Shown piece by piece: positions 4,386 to 25,383 of a stretch of DNA of 64,000 bases. The stretch's first letter is position 1; each line of letters opens with the position of its first letter. The translations under genes were made by a program, and so were the position numbers. The notes beneath the pieces were generated by a model. It was not told the DNA's origin. It did no database searches and saw nothing but the letters and a program-made list of their open reading frames with translations. Source of the stretch: Streptomyces sp. NBC_00425 (GTDB lineage Bacteria; Actinomycetota; Actinomycetes; Streptomycetales; Streptomycetaceae); NCBI RefSeq assembly GCF_036030735.1, contig NZ_CP107928.1, positions 496,001 through 560,000 of the forward strand. Direction: 5' to 3'.

Positions 4386-4741
4386 AGGCGACGGAATTTT
4401 CCACCCACCGGCGTGACCGCTACAAACCCTGACGGATCCGAGGCACGGAAGACGGATCCGACCACCCGATTTCGAGCTCCACCGTCACTGCGCCTCGACG
4501 CAGATCGATCACTCCATCGCTTCCATCGCTTCCATCGCGAAGCCACGCGACGATCACGTACCACACCCTCGAACGGATGAGCGACTTCAAGTCTCACTGA
4601 CATTCACTGGTCCGTAGCCCACCAACCGCCATCCGAAGTCAGCGATAAATGCCTCCCGCTGACGCTTACACAGCCAGACAAGCAGGACGGCACCGCGACC
4701 TGGAAGAAATGGTATGGCCATCACCCGCTGGCGGCATTCGT
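4386..4741. other. Intergenic, no gene
   Basis: Holds a short ttccatcgc tandem (about 4510-4538) and no credible frame. It separates the nucleotidyltransferase from the end of the AraC gene. Confidence 0.5.
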
Positions 4742-8224: not shown

Positions 8225-9567
8225 GCCACCGTCTCCTTGCTGCGGTCGGCCCGCATGGCCGGAGGTCGTCCCTCGGTGGGCCAGCCCATGGCGGCGGCGG
8301 TCTTGGTGAGGTACTTGGTGTACGCGGCGCTGTCGACGTAGCCGGTGTGGCGCGGGGAGTCCACGAACCGCAGACCGCCGGTCAGGTCCGGGCGGTCGCT
8401 GCGAATCATGCGGGCGAACCGTGCGGCGTTCGGCAGGCCCCGGCGGGTGTCCTGGACGAAGCCGGCGATCAGCTGCGCCTGGGCGTCGAAGAGTTGGTAG
8501 GCGCCGGAGTTGGTCTCGATGAAGCCGACGCCGAACAGCCCCTCGTGCTCGCGGGAGAACGACGACAGGTACAGGTCGGGGTGCTGCTCGTCGCCGAAGT
8601 AGGTTTGCGCGACGGGCACTTTGTGCACATAGCCGGTCGCCAGCAGGATCAGGTCGAAGTCGTTCCTGCTGCCGTCGGTGAAGTGGACGGTGCGGCCCTC
8701 GGCGCGCAGGACGCCCGGCCGCGCGGTGATGTCGCCGTGCTGCAGGTGGTGCAGGAGCATCGAGTTGACCGTGGGGTGGGCCTCGAAGAGCTTGTGGTCC
8801 GGCTTCTGCAGGCCGAGGCGGGTCGGATCGCCGTTGACGATCCGCAGGAGCGTGCCGAACAGCCTCTGCTCCAGCCACTTCGGCATCCGGGGCCCGACAC
8901 CTTCGAGGGTGTCCACGGGCCTGCCGAACAGGTGCTTGGGGATGAACCAGTAACCGCGGCGCATGCTGATCTCCGCGTGGTCGGCGGCACGGGCCGCGTC
9001 GCAGCCGATGTCGCAGCCCGAGTTGCCCGCGCCGACCACCAGGACCCGCTTGCCGCGCAGTTCGTCGCTGCTGCGGTAGCCGAGCGTGTGCCGGATCTCG
9101 CCGCTGAAGTCACCCGGGATCTCGGGGATGTTGGGGTGCCACTGCGAGCCGGTGCAGACCACCACCTGCGCGTGCCGACTGGGGCGCCCGTCGGCACGGG
9201 TGACCGTCCAGGTGCCGTCCGCGTTCTTCGCTATGTCGCGCACCGCGGTGCCGAACTCGATGCGTTCCGAGAGCCCGTACGCGTCGGCGAACGACGTCAG
9301 ATACGACAGGATCTGCCGCTGCGGCGGGTAGTCGGCGAAGTGGTCGGGCATCGGCCAGCCTCCGAAGCCCGAGACGGTCTTGCTGGAGACGAAATGGGCC
9401 GACTCGTACATCGGGCTGCCCGGGTTGTCGATGTCCCACAGGCCACCCGGACCGGTGTGCCGCTCGATGTGCGTGTAGGGAAGCCGTCGCTCACCGAGCG
9501 CCCGTGCCACTGCCAGCCCAGCGGGACCGGCACCGATGACACATGTGTCGATTTCGGACTCCTTCAC
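8221..9567 (-). CDS. Flavin-containing / Baeyer-Villiger-type monooxygenase
   Basis: An FAD- and NADPH-dependent monooxygenase of about 448 residues. The FAD site is CVIGAGPAGLAVARAL near the N-terminus. The family signature FxGxxxHxxxY appears as FSGEIRHTLGY, and the NADPH site is VVGAGNSGCDIG. The GTG at 9567 is preferred because a perfect AGGAGG lies eight bases before it; an upstream GTG at 9591 has no such site. First gene of the FMO-SDR-ALDH-AraC unit. The set suggests successive oxygenation and oxidation of a hydrophobic ketone, alcohol or aldehyde. Confidence 0.93.
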   Translation of the reverse strand: MKESEIDTCVIGAGPAGLAVARALGERRLPYTHIERHTGPGGLWDIDNPGSPMYESAHFVSSKTVSGFGGWPMPDHFADYPPQRQILSYLTSFADAYGLSERIEFGTAVRDIAKNADGTWTVTRADGRPSRHAQVVVCTGSQWHPNIPEIPGDFSGEIRHTLGYRSSDELRGKRVLVVGAGNSGCDIGCDAARAADHAEISMRRGYWFIPKHLFGRPVDTLEGVGPRMPKWLEQRLFGTLLRIVNGDPTRLGLQKPDHKLFEAHPTVNSMLLHHLQHGDITARPGVLRAEGRTVHFTDGSRNDFDLILLATGYVHKVPVAQTYFGDEQHPDLYLSSFSREHEGLFGVGFIETNSGAYQLFDAQAQLIAGFVQDTRRGLPNAARFARMIRSDRPDLTGGLRFVDSPRHTGYVDSAAYTKYLTKTAAAMGWPTEGRPPAMRADRSKETVA

Positions 9568-13124: not shown

Positions 13125-13380
13125 TTACTGTGCGCCGAGCGTCATCCACTTCTCGGGCTTCTCCAGGGTTGCGAAGCCCGACTTCGCGTAGATCGCGTGC
13201 GCGTCCGCGGTGGCCAGCAGCACGCGTCGCAGCCCATAGGGCGCGAGATACTCGCAGACGGCGGCGACCAGAGCGTGCCCCAGGCCCTTCCCCCGGCTGC
13301 CGCGAGCGATGTAGACGTCGCACAGCCAGGCGAACGTGGCCTGGTACCGGTCGACGCCGGAGGGCTGGCTCAGCCTCAGG
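13125..13380 (-). pseudogene. C-terminal fragment of a GNAT acetyltransferase
   Basis: The text DVYIARGSRGKGLGHALVAA is the acetyl-CoA-binding motif (R/Q-x-x-G-x-G/A), followed by RRVLLATADAHAIYAKSGF, the usual GNAT end. About half of the domain is missing at the N-terminus. The frame runs straight into the antisense of a HEAT-repeat gene, marking a breakpoint near 13380. Confidence 0.7.
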
Positions 13381-13935
13381 CCGTTCGCGGGGCGGGGGCT
13401 CCCGGGGCTGGAGGGTCGAGCCGTGCGATGAGGGTACGGCAGACCCGCTGGAGTTCCTCGTCGTGGTCGATGCTCTGGAACCTGCCACCGCGTCGGGGCT
13501 GGGCCAGTTGCTCGCGGAGCAGGGGCAGGGCCGGTGCCGCGAGTGGGCCCATGCGGTCCAGACAGGCCACGACGTGATTGGCCGTCGCCGAGTTCTGGGC
13601 CATGGCCAACAGCAGGGTGTCCAGGACGGCCGGCGCCTCGGCCTTGCCGCCGACCTCCCAGAGCGCGGCCGCGCAATGCACCCGGACCCATTCGTATTCC
13701 TGCGTCAGGAGGTTACGCAGGCGCGGCAGTGCGATGGAGGCGGACGGGCCGATCTCGCCGAGCAGATCAGCCGCATCACTGATCCGGAAGGTGATGCGGT
13801 CGTCGAGGAGGGGGAGCAAAAGAGGTAGGAGCTCGGCCAGGCCGCCGTCGAGGGCCCACAGCGCGGCGACGGCGGCAGGACGGACGTGCGCGTCGGTGGC
13901 GGTGGTAAGCGCCCGGATCGTGCCCTTTGCGCCGG
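13376..13935 (-). pseudogene. HEAT-repeat protein, N-terminally truncated
   Basis: Repeating helical pairs (HVRPAAVAALWALDGGLAEL, RISDAADLLGEIGPSASIAL, WVRVHCAAALWEVGG) are typical of actinobacterial HEAT/PBS-lyase repeat proteins. These are usually several times longer. Homology begins abruptly at about 13930, where the Tap-like sequence starts on the other strand. The last bases overlap the GNAT fragment. Confidence 0.6.
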
Positions 13936-15413
13936 TTGGGGCGGAGAAGCTGCACGGCTCGGGCAAGGACGCCGACCCGCTGCTGGTCCTCACCGAAGCC
14001 GCGTGCGAGCGCTACGGCCTGCCCGCCGCACTGTCGGAGTCCGAGCGCCTCGCCGGGCGGCTGCCGGAGGGGCACAAGGTCATCAGGCAGCTTGAGCGCG
14101 CGGATCGGCAGCTGACCAAGCGGGGGCTGGGGCCGTGGGCGCGGATCTACCGCCCCGCCGTAGGCGGCCGCCGGCAGTGCGTGCAGCTGTGCATCCCCTC
14201 CTGGCGCGCCCTCGACGATCGCGCCTGGGGACACGCCGCCCAGCTGGAGCCCGCAGAACTCGCCCGGGTGCTGGGGGTGTACGCGGCCCGGGTGATGACG
14301 CCGGTCGGCCCCACCGCGGTGACGGGACTGCAGCTGATGACCACACTCAATCCGCCGACCCGCGCGAGCGAACCGGACGAGAACGGCAGACGGCACCGCG
14401 AGCACCGGCCCGGCTCGCTGGGAACGGAGCCGATGGACCCCGCGCCGTGCGAGGCGACCGACGGACACCCCGTCCTGGCGCACCTGCCCCGCTTCCACGT
14501 GCGCGGGCCCGGCGAGAGGCTGTTCGAGGAGGCCTACGACTGGGCGCGGGATCTGACCGATGCCGAGTGCATGCAGCGGCACCTGGTCGGCCTGGATGTG
14601 AACCTCGCCTTCGGCGCGGCCGCCAACGGCGCCGTCGTCGGCCTGGCCACGCCGCCCGTGCACGTCACCGGTCCGGTCTTCGACGCGGCGGTGCCCGGCT
14701 CCTGGCTGGTCGACCTCTCCCACGTCGACCTGTCCCGGGTGAAGGTCGGCAAGCAGTGGCGCGCCCTCGACGCCGCGCTGATGCCCAACCCGTTCACGCC
14801 GACCGGCGAACCCCCGACGGGAGCGGCCTGGTACGCCACGCCCACCGTGGCGTACGCCGTCGAGCTCGGCTACGACGTCGCGCCCGTGGAGGCCTGGGTG
14901 CGCCGTGAGAGCGGCCGGTTCCTGGACGGCTGGTACAAGCGGCTGCGCGATGCCTATGTCGCCGCCATGGCGGACCTCGGCGTCGCGGAGAAGCTGTCCC
15001 CGGCCGACTTCCTGGAGGCGATGGACGGCTACAAGAGCCGTGATCCCCGGCCGGAGCTCGCCGAGCGGCTTCAGGGCGAGGTCCGCGCACGCTGGCAGCC
15101 GCAGATCAGGGCCCGGGCAAAGCAGGCCGCCGCCTCCGCGAACGGCATCATGATCAATGTACAAGCGAGGTTCGGCTACACCGCCGCCGGCAACAGCACC
15201 GACCAGGCCCGGGTGCGTCACCTCACCCTCGCCCTGCACCCCCGGCACGCCGCCCGCCTTTTCGAGGCCCGCGAGGCCGGCATGGACGAGGACGACCTCC
15301 TCCAGGTCGCCGCCGAGGTTCTGGGCGAGGTCTACTTCCGCGACAACGGCCGCCGCGCCCACGGCCTCGAAGTCGAACTCAAAGATCTCGTCGACCTCGA
15401 GTTCGAGCTGTAG
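13920..15413 (+). CDS. tap/tpg: Chimeric telomere protein: Tap fused in frame to Tpg
   Basis: Residues about 1-375, counted from GTG 13920, match the middle and C-terminal region of Streptomyces Tap, the telomere-associated protein that recruits Tpg to the 3' overhang of linear replicons. The evidence is KLHGSGKDADPLLVLT, LGPWARIYRPAVGGRRQCVQ, AARVMTPVGPTAVTGLQLMT and PGSWLVDLSHVD. From about 15041-15055 onward the text is the C-terminal two thirds of Tpg, the terminal protein that primes end patching: EVRARWQPQIRARAKQAA, INVQARFGYTAAGNSTDQAR, YFRDNGRRAHGLEVEL. The frame is continuous through the join. The Tap HTH N-terminus and the Tpg HTH are both missing. The start is uncertain because the frame stays open back to 13578 through antisense HEAT sequence. 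Confidence 0.85.
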   Translation: MPFAPVGAEKLHGSGKDADPLLVLTEAACERYGLPAALSESERLAGRLPEGHKVIRQLERADRQLTKRGLGPWARIYRPAVGGRRQCVQLCIPSWRALDDRAWGHAAQLEPAELARVLGVYAARVMTPVGPTAVTGLQLMTTLNPPTRASEPDENGRRHREHRPGSLGTEPMDPAPCEATDGHPVLAHLPRFHVRGPGERLFEEAYDWARDLTDAECMQRHLVGLDVNLAFGAAANGAVVGLATPPVHVTGPVFDAAVPGSWLVDLSHVDLSRVKVGKQWRALDAALMPNPFTPTGEPPTGAAWYATPTVAYAVELGYDVAPVEAWVRRESGRFLDGWYKRLRDAYVAAMADLGVAEKLSPADFLEAMDGYKSRDPRPELAERLQGEVRARWQPQIRARAKQAAASANGIMINVQARFGYTAAGNSTDQARVRHLTLALHPRHAARLFEAREAGMDEDDLLQVAAEVLGEVYFRDNGRRAHGLEVELKDLVDLEFEL

Positions 15414-15450
15414 ACCGGTCGGGGGCGCCGGGACGGGAGAGCAGGAACGG

Positions 15451-15582
15451 ATGCCGGGGAGAGTTGTGGCAGCAGGGGTGTTACGGACGACCTTCGACAT
15501 TCACTTCTACATGAACGAAGTGACTGGAGAAGTCTACTACTACGACTACAAGGTAAAGTTCGGCGGAGGACAGAGAAATTGA
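15451..15582 (+). pseudogene. C-terminal tail of a polymorphic-toxin-like protein
   Basis: A 43-codon frame ending FYMNEVTGEVYYYDYKVKF then GGGQRN* looks like the last strand-rich segment of an RHS/contact-type toxin. Its stop overlaps the start of the following gene (TTGA). The base composition is visibly more A+T rich than the flanks. No upstream toxin body is present. The toxin reading is inference from composition and the adjacent small gene. Confidence 0.4.
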
Positions 15583-15950
15583 GAGTGCGATATTTGGGCG
15601 CCTCAGATGCGCCCCCCAAACCAATAGACGGAAGATACCACCTCACCGTTGGGCGAGAATACGTCGTACTCGAACTCAACGTACGCAGCGACGGTTCTTC
15701 TTCCCTGCGGATCGAACACTCACCAGAGGACCTGGCAGGCCTATACAGCGGAAAGTACTTCGAGCAGGTATCTGACATCATCCCTTCCCAGTGGAGTATC
15801 GAGATCAGCCAGCAAGCCGGCCTGAGTCTTGGACCGAAAGAATGGATCTCAGGAGATTTCTGGGAACGCATGATGGAACGTGACCCGGAAGCAGAATCCT
15901 CCTTCGAAGTGACGCGCGACGCGATTACGACAGAGGACCCGATCCCCTAA
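15579..15950 (+). CDS. Small acidic protein, candidate immunity protein
   Basis: A 123-residue soluble protein (MRVRYLGASDAPPKPIDGRY; later EYVVLELNVRSDGSSSLRIE). It starts at TTG 15579 overlapping the upstream stop; GTG 15585 is an alternative. Codon use is A+T-richer than its neighbours, which suggests recent acquisition. Position behind a toxin-like tail and an own terminator (15966-15994) fit an orphan immunity gene, but I recognise no immunity family. Confidence 0.55.
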   Translation: MRVRYLGASDAPPKPIDGRYHLTVGREYVVLELNVRSDGSSSLRIEHSPEDLAGLYSGKYFEQVSDIIPSQWSIEISQQAGLSLGPKEWISGDFWERMMERDPEAESSFEVTRDAITTEDPIP

Positions 15951-15965
15951 CATCGATCCTTCGCG

Positions 15966-20578: not shown

Positions 20579-20968
20579 ATGCGGAACCAGCCTGTACTTG
20601 TTTTTGATGGGGATTGCAGCTTTTGCTCTACGTCGGTGAGGTTCGCTGAGCGACGCCTACAGCCTCGTTGCCAGACCATTCCTTGGCAGTTCGCGGACTT
20701 GGAAGCTCTTGGTGTCACCTCAGCACGAGCCGAGCATGAAGTTTTGTGGGTGACTCCCAGAGGCGTTGTGTATGGAGGCGCTCAGGCTGTCGCGAAGGCG
20801 CTCTTGAGCGCGGGGGGAGGATGGGCGCTGGCGGGTGCGTTGCTCATGCTGCCTCCCATACGGTGGGTTGCCCACGGTGTGTATCGACTCGTCGCGAACA
20901 ATCGTCACCGCATGCCAGGAGGTACCGCGGCATGCGCTCTGCCCAACCGTCGAGCGGTTGGGCTGTAG
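20579..20968 (+). CDS. DCC-family thiol-disulfide oxidoreductase-like protein (DUF393)
   Basis: A 129-residue protein starting MRNQPVLVFDGDCSFCSTSV. The VFDGDCSFC motif defines the DCC family; its CxxC would be the redox pair, with the first Cys in DGDC. A later hydrophobic helix (WALAGALLMLPPIRWVAHGV) and C-terminal RLVANNRHRMPGG match full-length members. Codon use is slightly less GC-biased than the neighbours. It is intact and stands alone. Confidence 0.85.
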   Translation: MRNQPVLVFDGDCSFCSTSVRFAERRLQPRCQTIPWQFADLEALGVTSARAEHEVLWVTPRGVVYGGAQAVAKALLSAGGGWALAGALLMLPPIRWVAHGVYRLVANNRHRMPGGTAACALPNRRAVGL

Positions 20969-20986
20969 CCGAACTTCCCAGCACTG

Positions 20987-21537
20987 TCAGGACGGCAGGA
21001 CACGTTTGCGGAGCAGGGCGAAACCTGCACGGCCGAACATGGCGCTTGAGCATCTTGATCCGGTTGACATGGCCTTCGACAGGACCCGAGTTCCAGGGCA
21101 GGGTCGGGCCGGCGATGACGGCATCACGGTCGCGGTCGATGCCTGCGGCGAGGGTATGGAGGCTGGGTAGATCGTCCTGTCGGACGGCGTCGAGCCAGTC
21201 CGGCAGCCGCTCGCCCTGTCGACCGGTGAGCATGGTCGCGAAGGACCGGACGTGCCCGGTGAGGGCATCGAGTTCGGGGCAGTGCGTCCGAACGGCCTTG
21301 AGGTGAAGTTGCTCGGTCTCGATGAGGGTGTCCGGATGGCGGAGGATCCATCCGGCGACGGTCCGGGACGAGGGCGGCCGGGCGGTCACCGGCCGTCGTG
21401 CGGTGCGCTTATCGTGCAGGTAGGCGCGAACGCGCTGGTAGCTTCCCTTGTAGCCGAGTGGCACGATCTCCTCCCGCAGCTTCCACGCGTTGGTGCAGCC
21501 CTCGTTCCAACGGTCGTCCAGGTGGACTTGTAGTCAT
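20987..21537 (-). mobile_element. ISL3-family transposase remnant
   Basis: C-terminal third of an ISL3 transposase. DDRWNEGCTNAWKLREEIV leads into LGYKGSYQRVRAYLHDKR. The acidic DDE-domain end PWNSGPVEGHVNRIKMLKR follows, then after a one-base shift MFGRAGFALLRKRVLPS*. A TGA and a second frame slip mark the 5' break at about 21535. It is not functional. Confidence 0.75.
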
Positions 21538-22336: not shown

Positions 22337-22747
22337 TTGCGCGAGCTCGTCCTGGAATTCAGGATCACCCACCTGGAGAGTGAGCTGAACGCGGCGCTGA
22401 AGCCGTTCAGCATCGGCATCGGCAGCCTGGACGACCGCTACCCCACCATCCTCTCGGTCGTCTTCCTGCAGCTGTACAACCACCTCGCCGAGGACGCCAC
22501 GATCCGCGAGTGCGCCAACGAGACCTGCCGCCGCAGCTTCGTGCGCCAGCGCGGCCGCGCCGAGTACGGGCAGAACCGCACCAGCGGCATCAAGTACTGC
22601 ACCCGCGAATGCGCCCGCGCCCAGGCCCAGCGCGAACTGCGCCGACGCCGCAGGCAGCAGACTCCCCCGCTCCAGCAGCCGCCGTCCCAGAGTCCGGAGC
22701 CGCGGGACAGCCCGGAGCCTGCCGGCCAGGCGGGGGATGCGTCGTGA
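22337..22747 (+). CDS. Zinc-finger protein, probably lacking its N-terminus
   Basis: The segment [20 protein letters not shown] followed by [20 protein letters not shown] forms a CxxxxC...CxxxC zinc ribbon of CGNR-like type with a basic tail. The region before it ([36 protein letters not shown]) is helical. No good start is visible. The TTG at 22337 sits against the start of the divergent nuclease gene, so the 5' part may have been removed. The stop overlaps the helicase GTG (GTGA), implying coupled translation. Confidence 0.6.
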
Positions 22748-25383
22748 TCAGTCTTCGGGAACACCAGGCGCAGGCCGTCTCGCGAATCCGCGCGTGGGCG
22801 GGATTTCCCGTACGGTCGTCCACGCCCGCCCAGGGGCTTCGGGCGACGGTGGTCTCCGCGACCGGCTCCGGAAAGACGATCACGGCCGCGTGGGCCGCGC
22901 TGGAGTGCTTTCGTGGCGGGCGGATCCTCGTCATGGTGCCCACGCTCGACCTGCTCGTGCAGACCGCCCAGGCGTGGCGCAGCGTGGGCCACCACGCGCC
23001 GATGGCCGCGGTGTGCTCGCTGGAGAAGGACGAGGTCCTGGAGCAGCTCGGCGTGCGGACGACCACCCACCCGATCCAGCTGGCGCTGTGGGCGGGGCAC
23101 GGGCCGGTGGTCGTGTTCGCGACGTACGCCTCCCTCGTGGACCGTGAGGATCCCGAGGACGTCACGGGCCGGGCGAAGGTGCGGGGGCCGCTGGAGGCCG
23201 CTCTGGCGGGCGGGGAGCGGCTGTACGGGCAGACGATGGACGGCTTCGACCTCGCCGTCGTCGACGAAGCCCACGCAACCGCCGGTGATCTCGGGCGGCC
23301 GTGGGCGGCGATCCACGACAACACCCGCATCCCGGCCGACTTCCGGCTTTACCTGACCGCGACCCCGCGCATCCTCGCCTCCCCCCGCCCGCAGAAGGGC
23401 GCGGACGGCCAGGAGTTGGAGATCGCGACCATGGCGTCCGACCCGGACGGCCCCTACGGCGCGTGGCTGTTCGAGCTCGGGCTGTCGGAGGCGATCGAGC
23501 GGGGCATCCTCGCCGGGTTCGAGATCGACGTCCTGGAGATCCACGATCCCTCCCCCGTCCTTGCGGAATCGGAGGAGGCGCAGCGGGGCCGGCGCCTGGC
23601 GCTGCTGCAGACCGCGCTCCTGGAGCACGCCGCCGCGCGCAACCTGCGCACCGTCATGACGTTCCACCAGCGTGTCGAGGAAGCCGCCGCGTTCGCGCAG
23701 AAGATGCCGCAGACGGCAGCGCGACTCTACGAGGCCGAGGTCTCCGACAGGGACCTGGCCGGCGCGGAGACCCTGCCGAAGTCGTCGATCGACGCCGAGT
23801 TCTACGAGCTGGAGGCCGGCCGCCACGTGCCCCCGGACCGCGTGTGGTCGGCATGGCTGTGCGGCGACCACCTCGTCGCCGAACGCCGCGAAGTCCTGCG
23901 CCAGTTCGCAGGCGGCCTCGACGCCGGCAACAGGCGCGTGCACCGGGCGTTCCTGGCCAGCGTGCGGGTCCTGGGCGAGGGCGTCGACATCGTCGGCGAA
24001 CGCGGTGTGGAGGCGATCTGCTTCGCCGACACCCGCGGCTCCCAGGTCGAGATCGTGCAGAACATCGGCCGGGCCCTGCGCCCGAACCCCGACGGCACGG
24101 CCAAGACCGCCAGGATCATCGTGCCCGTCTTCCTGAAGCCCGGCGAAGACCCCGCCGACATGGTCGCCTCCGCCTCGTTCGCCCCCCTCGTAGCCGTCCT
24201 CCAAGACCTGCGTTCGCACTCGGAACGCCTCGTCGAACAGCTCGCCTCACGCGCACTCACCAGCGGCAAACGCAAGATCCACCTCCAGCGCGATGAGGAC
24301 GGGTGGATTGTCGGGGCCGGCGGAGAGGGCGACGGCGATGAGCAGGAGCAGGACGACACCGACGCCGCTGCCGAGTCCGCCCTGCTGCACTTCTCCAGCC
24401 CGCGCGACGCAGCCACGATCGCAGCGTTCCTGCGCACCCGGGTCTACCGGCCCGAATCCCTCGTCTGGCTCGAGGGCTACCAAGCCCTCATCCGCTGGCG
24501 CACCCACCACAAGATCACCGGCCTCCACGCCGTCCCCTACGACGTCGAGACCGAGGTCGGCGTCACCAAGGACTTCCCCCTCGGACGGTGGGTCCACCAA
24601 CAGCGCAAGGCCCTGCGAGCCGGAGAACTCGAGGAGCGGCGCAAGACCCTGCTGGACGCCCCGGAAGCCGGGATGGTCTGGGAACCCGGCGAAGAAGCGT
24701 GGGAGAACAAGCTCGCCGCGCTGCGGTCCTACCGGCGGGCCCTGGGGCACCTCGCCCCACGCCAGGACGCGGTGTGGGGCGAAGACGACGCGATGGTGCC
24801 CATCGGGCAGCACATCGCCAACCTCCGCCGCAACGGCGGCCTGGGCAAAGACCCGGAACGGACAGCACAGCGCGCGCAGCAGCTGGCCGCGATCGACCCG
24901 GACTGGAACTGCCCCTGGCCACTGGACTGGCAACGCCACCACCGCGTACTCGCCGACCTCCCCAACATCGCACCCGGCGTCCTCTTCGAAGGCGACGACC
25001 TCGGACGATGGCTGCAGCGACAGAAGAATCCGGGCACCTGGGCCCAGCTGTCCGAGGAGCAGCAGGAACGGCTGACCAAGCTGGGCGCACAGCCCGTCCA
25101 GGCGCCCGCTCTGGCCCCGGCGGTCCCGCATGCGACGAAGGGCCCGAGCAAGGCGCAGCAGGCGTTCCAGCGCGGACTTACAGCCCTCGCACAGTGGATC
25201 GAACGCGAAGGCGTCCACCGGCCCGTACCCCGCAACCACAGCGAACCGATCACGGTCAACGGCGAGACAGAGCCGGTGGTCGTGAAGCTGGGCGTATGGG
25301 TCTCCAACACCAAATCAAGGCGGGATCGGCTGGACGCCGACCAGCTCGACGCACTACGGAAGCTGGGAGCGGAGTGGGCGTAG
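22744..25383 (+). CDS. DEAD/DEAH-box helicase with C-terminal helicase-associated repeats
   Basis: An 879-residue superfamily 2 helicase. The Walker A motif is SATGSGKT (38-45) and Walker B is VVDEAHA (about 172). Motif III is LYLTATP and motif VI is [10 protein letters not shown]. An acidic linker ([16 protein letters not shown]) separates the motor from about four helicase-associated (HA) repeats of 60-70 residues ([79 protein letters not shown]). This resembles the helicase-like genes near Streptomyces chromosome and linear plasmid ends. The GTG at 22744 overlaps the zinc-finger stop. Confidence 0.88.

Follow-up and report, generated by a model that had tools for sequence, protein, structure and literature searches.

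A joined tap–tpg reading frame in a Streptomyces chromosome arm, very probably the scar of a broken telomere operon

The Streptomyces telomere proteins Tap and Tpg are, on their own, sufficient for protein-primed synthesis of 13 nucleotides (PMC4513846, 2015). In linear plasmids such as NZ_CP109231.1, NZ_CP130631.1, NZ_AP026074.1, and NZ_CP098484.1, tap and tpg form an operon of two separate genes with full-length products. Degraded or truncated copies of these genes are also known as pseudogenes that lie alongside working copies (PMC3572947; PMC7205883), and they include a 92-residue C-terminal tap remnant adjoining tpg (PMC7205883); among five lone tpg variants tested, three were pseudogenes (PMC3572947). 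Here we examine a 64,000-nucleotide stretch of Streptomyces sp. NBC_00425 (the window; positions 496001–560000 of a single 9,805,310-base contig), in which parts of tap and tpg occupy one open frame at 13920–15413 on the forward strand, ∼510 kb from the left chromosome end. This fusion keeps the gene order and strand of the plasmid operons and shares 86%–90% DNA identity with them in its Tap part and 83%–84% in its Tpg part. However, both genes are truncated and joined here. By far the best explanation, in which we have high confidence, is that the fusion is a recent dead scar of a broken tap–tpg operon. It thus resembles the known pseudogenes in being degraded alongside working copies, whereas one open frame uniting tap and tpg parts was not found among the pseudogenes in the excerpts of PMC3572947 and PMC7205883.

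A first-pass annotation of this DNA described an uninterrupted frame whose first ∼375 codons read as Tap and whose remainder reads as Tpg. The frame is indeed open over 497 codons, and its halves align separately with the two protein families. Fusion residues 4–377 match positions 200–552 of 695 in NF047542 (telomere_Tap, NCBIfam; E = 7.5e-179, 596.7 bits), and residues 372–497 match positions 58–183 of 183 in NF047541 (telomere_Tpg, NCBIfam; E = 4e-51, 173.6 bits). Both matches are far beyond chance, and the latter establishes the Tpg identity of the sequence downstream of 15041. The Tap score falls just short of the curated cut-off of 600 bits, whereas intact plasmid Taps reach 1065 and 1085 bits; the Tpg cut-off of 90 bits is passed, though only over the positions given. 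A Pfam search with the fusion returned nothing above threshold and one weak sub-threshold match. Although the first part of the frame is homologous to Tap, this homology begins only at ∼13929 and represents an internal fragment rather than the Tap N-terminus.

The boundaries of the two fragments were defined by DNA alignment with four related linear-plasmid tap–tpg operons (L001–L004). The internal tap fragment (13929–15046, + strand; 86%–90% identity to L001–L004) corresponds to approximately residues 212–582 of a 744-residue Tap. The tpg 3′ fragment (15045–15413, + strand; 83%–84% identity) corresponds to about residues 64–185 of 185 and retains the native stop codon. They meet at 15045–15046 (+ strand) in a two-base CC overlap within the Pro codon of DPRPEL, which agrees with the earlier placement of the join at about 15041–15055 (DPRPELAERL). 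Relative to L002 and L003, ∼690 bases are absent at this point.

Both genes have lost substantial parts. On its N-terminal side, Tap lacks the first ∼211 residues together with the native start; these residues hold a helix-turn-helix (HTH), a linker, and the opening strands of the domain that follows. The HTH of intact Tap lies at about residues 16–80 and is hence outside the fusion, which starts at ∼212. On its C-terminal side, Tap lacks ∼160 residues. Tpg lacks its N-terminus and HTH, as its part opens at about residue 64. The first-pass annotation had proposed that the two genes were fused by a deletion that took the Tap end along with the Tpg HTH, and this is borne out, but the loss of the Tap N-terminal residues had been overlooked. 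A single event is also an incomplete picture, because a second break took the Tap start and truncated a HEAT-repeat gene on the opposite strand. Downstream, plasmid-like sequence continues past the tpg stop (15414–15488, + strand) in the alignments with L002 and L003, which reach ∼15488 and there meet a third break. Unlike these, the L001 and L004 alignments stop near the tpg stop codon. A plasmid search with window positions 15489–15960 gave zero matches.

The upstream break is equally well marked. The HEAT-repeat gene remnant (13345–13938, − strand) encodes the last 188 of 707 residues and is 98.0% identical over 594 bases to the Streptomyces plasmid NZ_CP130719.1 (L055); at the protein level, identity is 95.7% over 188 residues to positions 520–707 of the 707-residue L055 gene product. 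The break at 13929–13938 is common to tap and the HEAT gene, which are divergently oriented, and the 5′ parts of both are lost. Upstream of 13930, the frame is antisense HEAT sequence. The guanine-plus-cytosine fractions of this leader at the three codon positions (.51/.74/.86) form a non-coding pattern, compared with.76/.52/.93 for the Tap part and.79/.43/.89 for the Tpg part. The native tap start is therefore gone, and the native promoter probably went with it. The longest mechanical frame begins at TTG 13578 and has 611 codons, but none of the 10 in-frame starts between 13578 and 13920 has a Shine–Dalgarno core. A scan for sigma-70-type promoters also found none, although only 0.1 were expected and other Streptomyces promoters fall outside the scan. 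Useful expression from this locus is probably absent.

If the frame were nevertheless expressed from a chance start, its product could have an effect in trans, such as rivalry with intact Tap or Tpg over binding partners or telomere DNA. The frame keeps two long conserved segments, and GTG codons are available in frame at 13896, 13902, and 13920. However, such a product would have to arise without the Shine–Dalgarno core or a promoter of the type scanned, it would carry changes at conserved positions, and its folding is doubtful, since in the Tap core model the cut interrupts the N-terminal alpha/beta domain. We consider this scenario very unlikely. We rate lower still a variant in which a chance-start single chain, with a crippled family-B-polymerase-like Tap core and its own primer domain, could not polymerise but would be primed by intact Tap or Tpg or would sequester either of them, and so tune telomere patching.

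The presence of a second, intact tap–tpg pair in the replicon, a question raised by the first-pass annotation, is answered at both chromosome ends. One pair lies at contig positions 4500–7145 at the left end and the other at 9798167–9800812 at the right end. The two terminal 5-kb loci are identical and sit in an inverted repeat whose arms share 99.9% identity across the 8 kb that were compared. The terminal pair shares only ∼52% (Tap) and ∼48% (Tpg) identity with the corresponding halves of the fusion, so the fusion is not derived as a copy of the terminal pairs. Two further tpg remnants are present in the chromosome, at contig positions 9565242–9565601 (+ strand, with an internal TGA) and 154700–154876 (− strand), and both score under the family cut-off.

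With the native tap start gone and intact pairs at both termini, a dead scar is the best explanation, and the absence of essential parts likewise favors a scar over a working protein. The two breaks, the neighboring HEAT gene cut at the same break, and the other tpg remnants in this genome support the same reading. The proposed history would begin with a linear-plasmid-type tap–tpg operon within subtelomeric debris, which would have been broken at least twice. A rearrangement at 13929–13938 would have stripped tap, and the HEAT gene on the opposite strand, of their 5′ sequence, and the ∼690-base deletion would have removed the 3′ end of tap with the 5′ end of tpg, by chance leaving one frame. 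As a fusion, the locus carries little weight, since it is one more tap/tpg remnant. It is, however, a tidy example of how chromosome-arm turnover can yield a chimeric frame that is open and looks conserved, and which annotation would take for a protein.

Studies of Streptomyces lividans Tpg allow the losses from the primer protein to be judged. T114 of that protein is deoxynucleotidylated, and a negative charge is required at position 115, whereas D117 is dispensable (PMC3572947). The protein is inactivated by deleting 4 or 8 N-terminal residues and, in the HTH region, by A42D, V52D, R54P, or Y55F, although some other HTH changes are tolerated (PMC3572947). These required N-terminal residues and the HTH are absent from the fusion. 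The priming position was assigned through the residues named in PMC3572947 and alignment A2, rather than by direct alignment of S. lividans Tpg. The first-pass annotation had pointed to a Thr in STDQAR near the reported priming site, and this Thr (codon 15198–15200, + strand; fusion residue 427) falls at the T114-equivalent position, followed by the equivalent of D115. The sequence S-T-D-Q occupies fusion residues 426–429, with S-T-D corresponding to Tpg residues 113–115 and Ala at 117.

The authors who described synthesis by Tap and Tpg found no polymerase motif in Tap and saw a parallel for the pair in the hepatitis B P protein (PMC4513846). With the fusion, that protein shares only the idea of a primer domain and a polymerase in one chain. 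Its terminal protein (TP) domain is N-terminal, the opposite order to that seen here (PMC4513846), and the fusion is without two of the three catalytic motifs, B and C, for which candidates can be named in intact Tap.

Structure modeling of the intact Tap core predicts a fold with exonuclease-like, palm, and fingers domains of the family-B DNA polymerase type. In the plasmid Tap P0003, the candidate motifs, assigned by eye, are D434-V-N (A), K594...G602-K603 (B), and S-D664-C (C). We take the D434 site to be what is called motif A in family-B polymerases. The candidate residues were counted as invariant in 29/29 and 78/78 Taps, although the assignment is by eye and the profile comparison is not significant. 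The predicted core matches phi29-type family-B DNA polymerases. If this is right, it would account for the ability of Tap and Tpg to prime and extend DNA without other proteins (PMC4513846), and D434, K594, and D664 of P0003 make the idea testable. This predicted likeness of the Tap core to family-B polymerases matters more than the fusion itself.

Sequence comparisons do not lend the same support. Kinship between Tap and phi29-like polymerases is unsupported by profile comparison, in which reversed controls scored alike, and the free and terminal-protein-bound phi29 DNA polymerase (2pyj, 2ex3) shows only 9%–12% identity without a significant profile match. A PDB sequence search with the first Tap alignment returned 12 chains at E values up to 10, of which the top two are HTH proteins and none is a polymerase. 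A first full-length Tap model was poor, with a mean predicted local distance difference test (pLDDT) score of 46.3, and only the HTH appeared among the matches listed. A literature search, as far as the excerpts it returned extend, found no publication stating that Tap is a family-B polymerase.

Compared with phi29 polymerase, the fusion carries just part of the Tap core, corresponding to about core residues 42–413 (left edge ∼42–45) and ending short of K424 and D494 (core numbering). In the core model, the three strands and one helix that open the N-terminal domain are missing from it, and it stops immediately ahead of helix 414–430, which carries the motif B candidate. Among the three candidate motifs only A is present, with its Asp codon at 14595–14597 (+ strand; fusion residue 226, equivalent to D434 of P0003). 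Because candidate motifs B and C are gone, the fusion should lack polymerase activity. With these candidate motifs and the Tpg-essential regions both missing, it probably also has no end-patching activity.

Selection on the locus was examined with a codon-model tree of 24 sequences, consisting of the fusion and 23 relatives kept from 35 loci; for the other 12 loci, which were left out, the Tap or Tpg piece could not be aligned at full length without gaps. At positions invariant in the 23 relatives, the fusion carries nine changes, whereas branch lengths predict 1.96 (P = 2e-4). Eight remain when the residue at the break is left out (P = 1e-3), and the Tap part alone has six compared with 1.06 expected. 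This excess is weak evidence of recent decay, as the counts are small and the ratio of nonsynonymous to synonymous substitution rates (omega) does not agree. Relaxed selection was looked for by branch omega and was not seen.

Several results weigh against a dead scar. The 497 codons contain no stops or frameshifts, and the equivalents of T114 and its acidic neighbor D115 are both retained. The Shine–Dalgarno test is a weak one, since by the same rule the genome's own intact terminal tap lacks a core too. In the Tpg part alone, the conserved-site changes (three compared with 0.90 expected, P = 0.063) are not significant. Omega is 0.085 on the window branch and 0.079 elsewhere (twice the log-likelihood difference, 2dlnL, 0.11), and thus is not raised; its likelihood range on the window branch is ∼0.055–0.13. 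An omega of 1 on this branch is rejected (2dlnL 104.9), and therefore most of the branch evolved under constraint. Such constraint would be seen with genes that died only recently, and also with a fusion that is alive still.

The first-pass annotation left the choice between a dead scar and a single-chain telomere protein. The latter would combine Tap as polymerase or recruiter and Tpg as primer in one working chain. The open frame, the constraint over most of the branch, the retained Thr–Asp pair, and candidate motif A are all compatible with such a protein. However, both HTH regions, the Tpg N-terminus essential in S. lividans (PMC3572947), candidate motifs B and C, and the native start are gone, intact pairs are present, and the fusion is not conserved in the searches made. 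A working single chain therefore receives even less credence than the chance-start products considered above, and a scar is strongly preferred.

The fusion was sought elsewhere at the protein and DNA levels. When the Tpg part was used to search proteins of about 273–870 residues (0.55–1.75 times 497 residues), the one hit among 909 candidates was the identical protein, annotated at 505 residues from GTG 13896. A junction 36-mer, with three or fewer mismatches allowed, occurs in one of 392 genomes of the genus, namely its own. DNA searching of the same genomes matched 359, and among the matches listed the whole query was covered only in its own genome. The exact junction 33-mer gave zero hits in genome_contigs and viral_contigs, where its own record is perhaps not included. 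In the best 60 of 440 plasmid records with matches, the query matched in two or three pieces. Examination of the best 80 of 574 Tap loci found a separate tpg 7–20 bases past tap in 78 (median 13) and a fused tap–tpg in none of these 78; the remaining two gave no Tap frame under the filter. The same fusion was therefore not found in another genome in the searches made, and the protein, 36-mer, and 33-mer searches revealed no conserved fusion family.

The identical protein is recorded from two contigs, possibly of one strain, the longest being 25,867 bases. Because of this length, the fusion protein is known beyond the 9.8-Mb contig of the window. This bears on whether the join is an artefact of assembly or sequencing, as might arise where tap–tpg sequences are repeated in a genome. 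Besides the two contig sources, the low identity of the terminal pair to both halves means that misjoining with it cannot explain them, and the HEAT-side break is equally sharp. An artefact is accordingly judged the least probable of the explanations considered here.

Damaged tap genes were also seen at two other loci in the genus. L020 (G153:C82:28626-29740) has a 595-residue Tap frame that is broken near its end, with the match resuming in another stretch, and G108:C1:248946-249467 matches only query bases 575–1096, at 93%.

Several neighboring frames in the window deserve mention. Beside the HEAT remnant, a GNAT acetyltransferase frame (13125–13691, − strand) has a best Pfam match that spans only profile positions 57–116 of 116, and it is possibly another truncated gene. 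A helicase-type frame of 957 residues lies at 22510–25383 (+ strand). When window positions 9500–34000 were compared with plasmids, a helicase was annotated under the match in seven of the best 12 of 231 records with matches; six of these seven matches lie within ∼11 kb of the record end, and the other (H90) is ∼31 kb away. The helicase region may be a leftover of an old linear-plasmid end or of a displaced chromosome end. An ISL3-transposase-like frame (20844–21464, − strand) scores 22.4 bits against a Pfam cut-off of 23.
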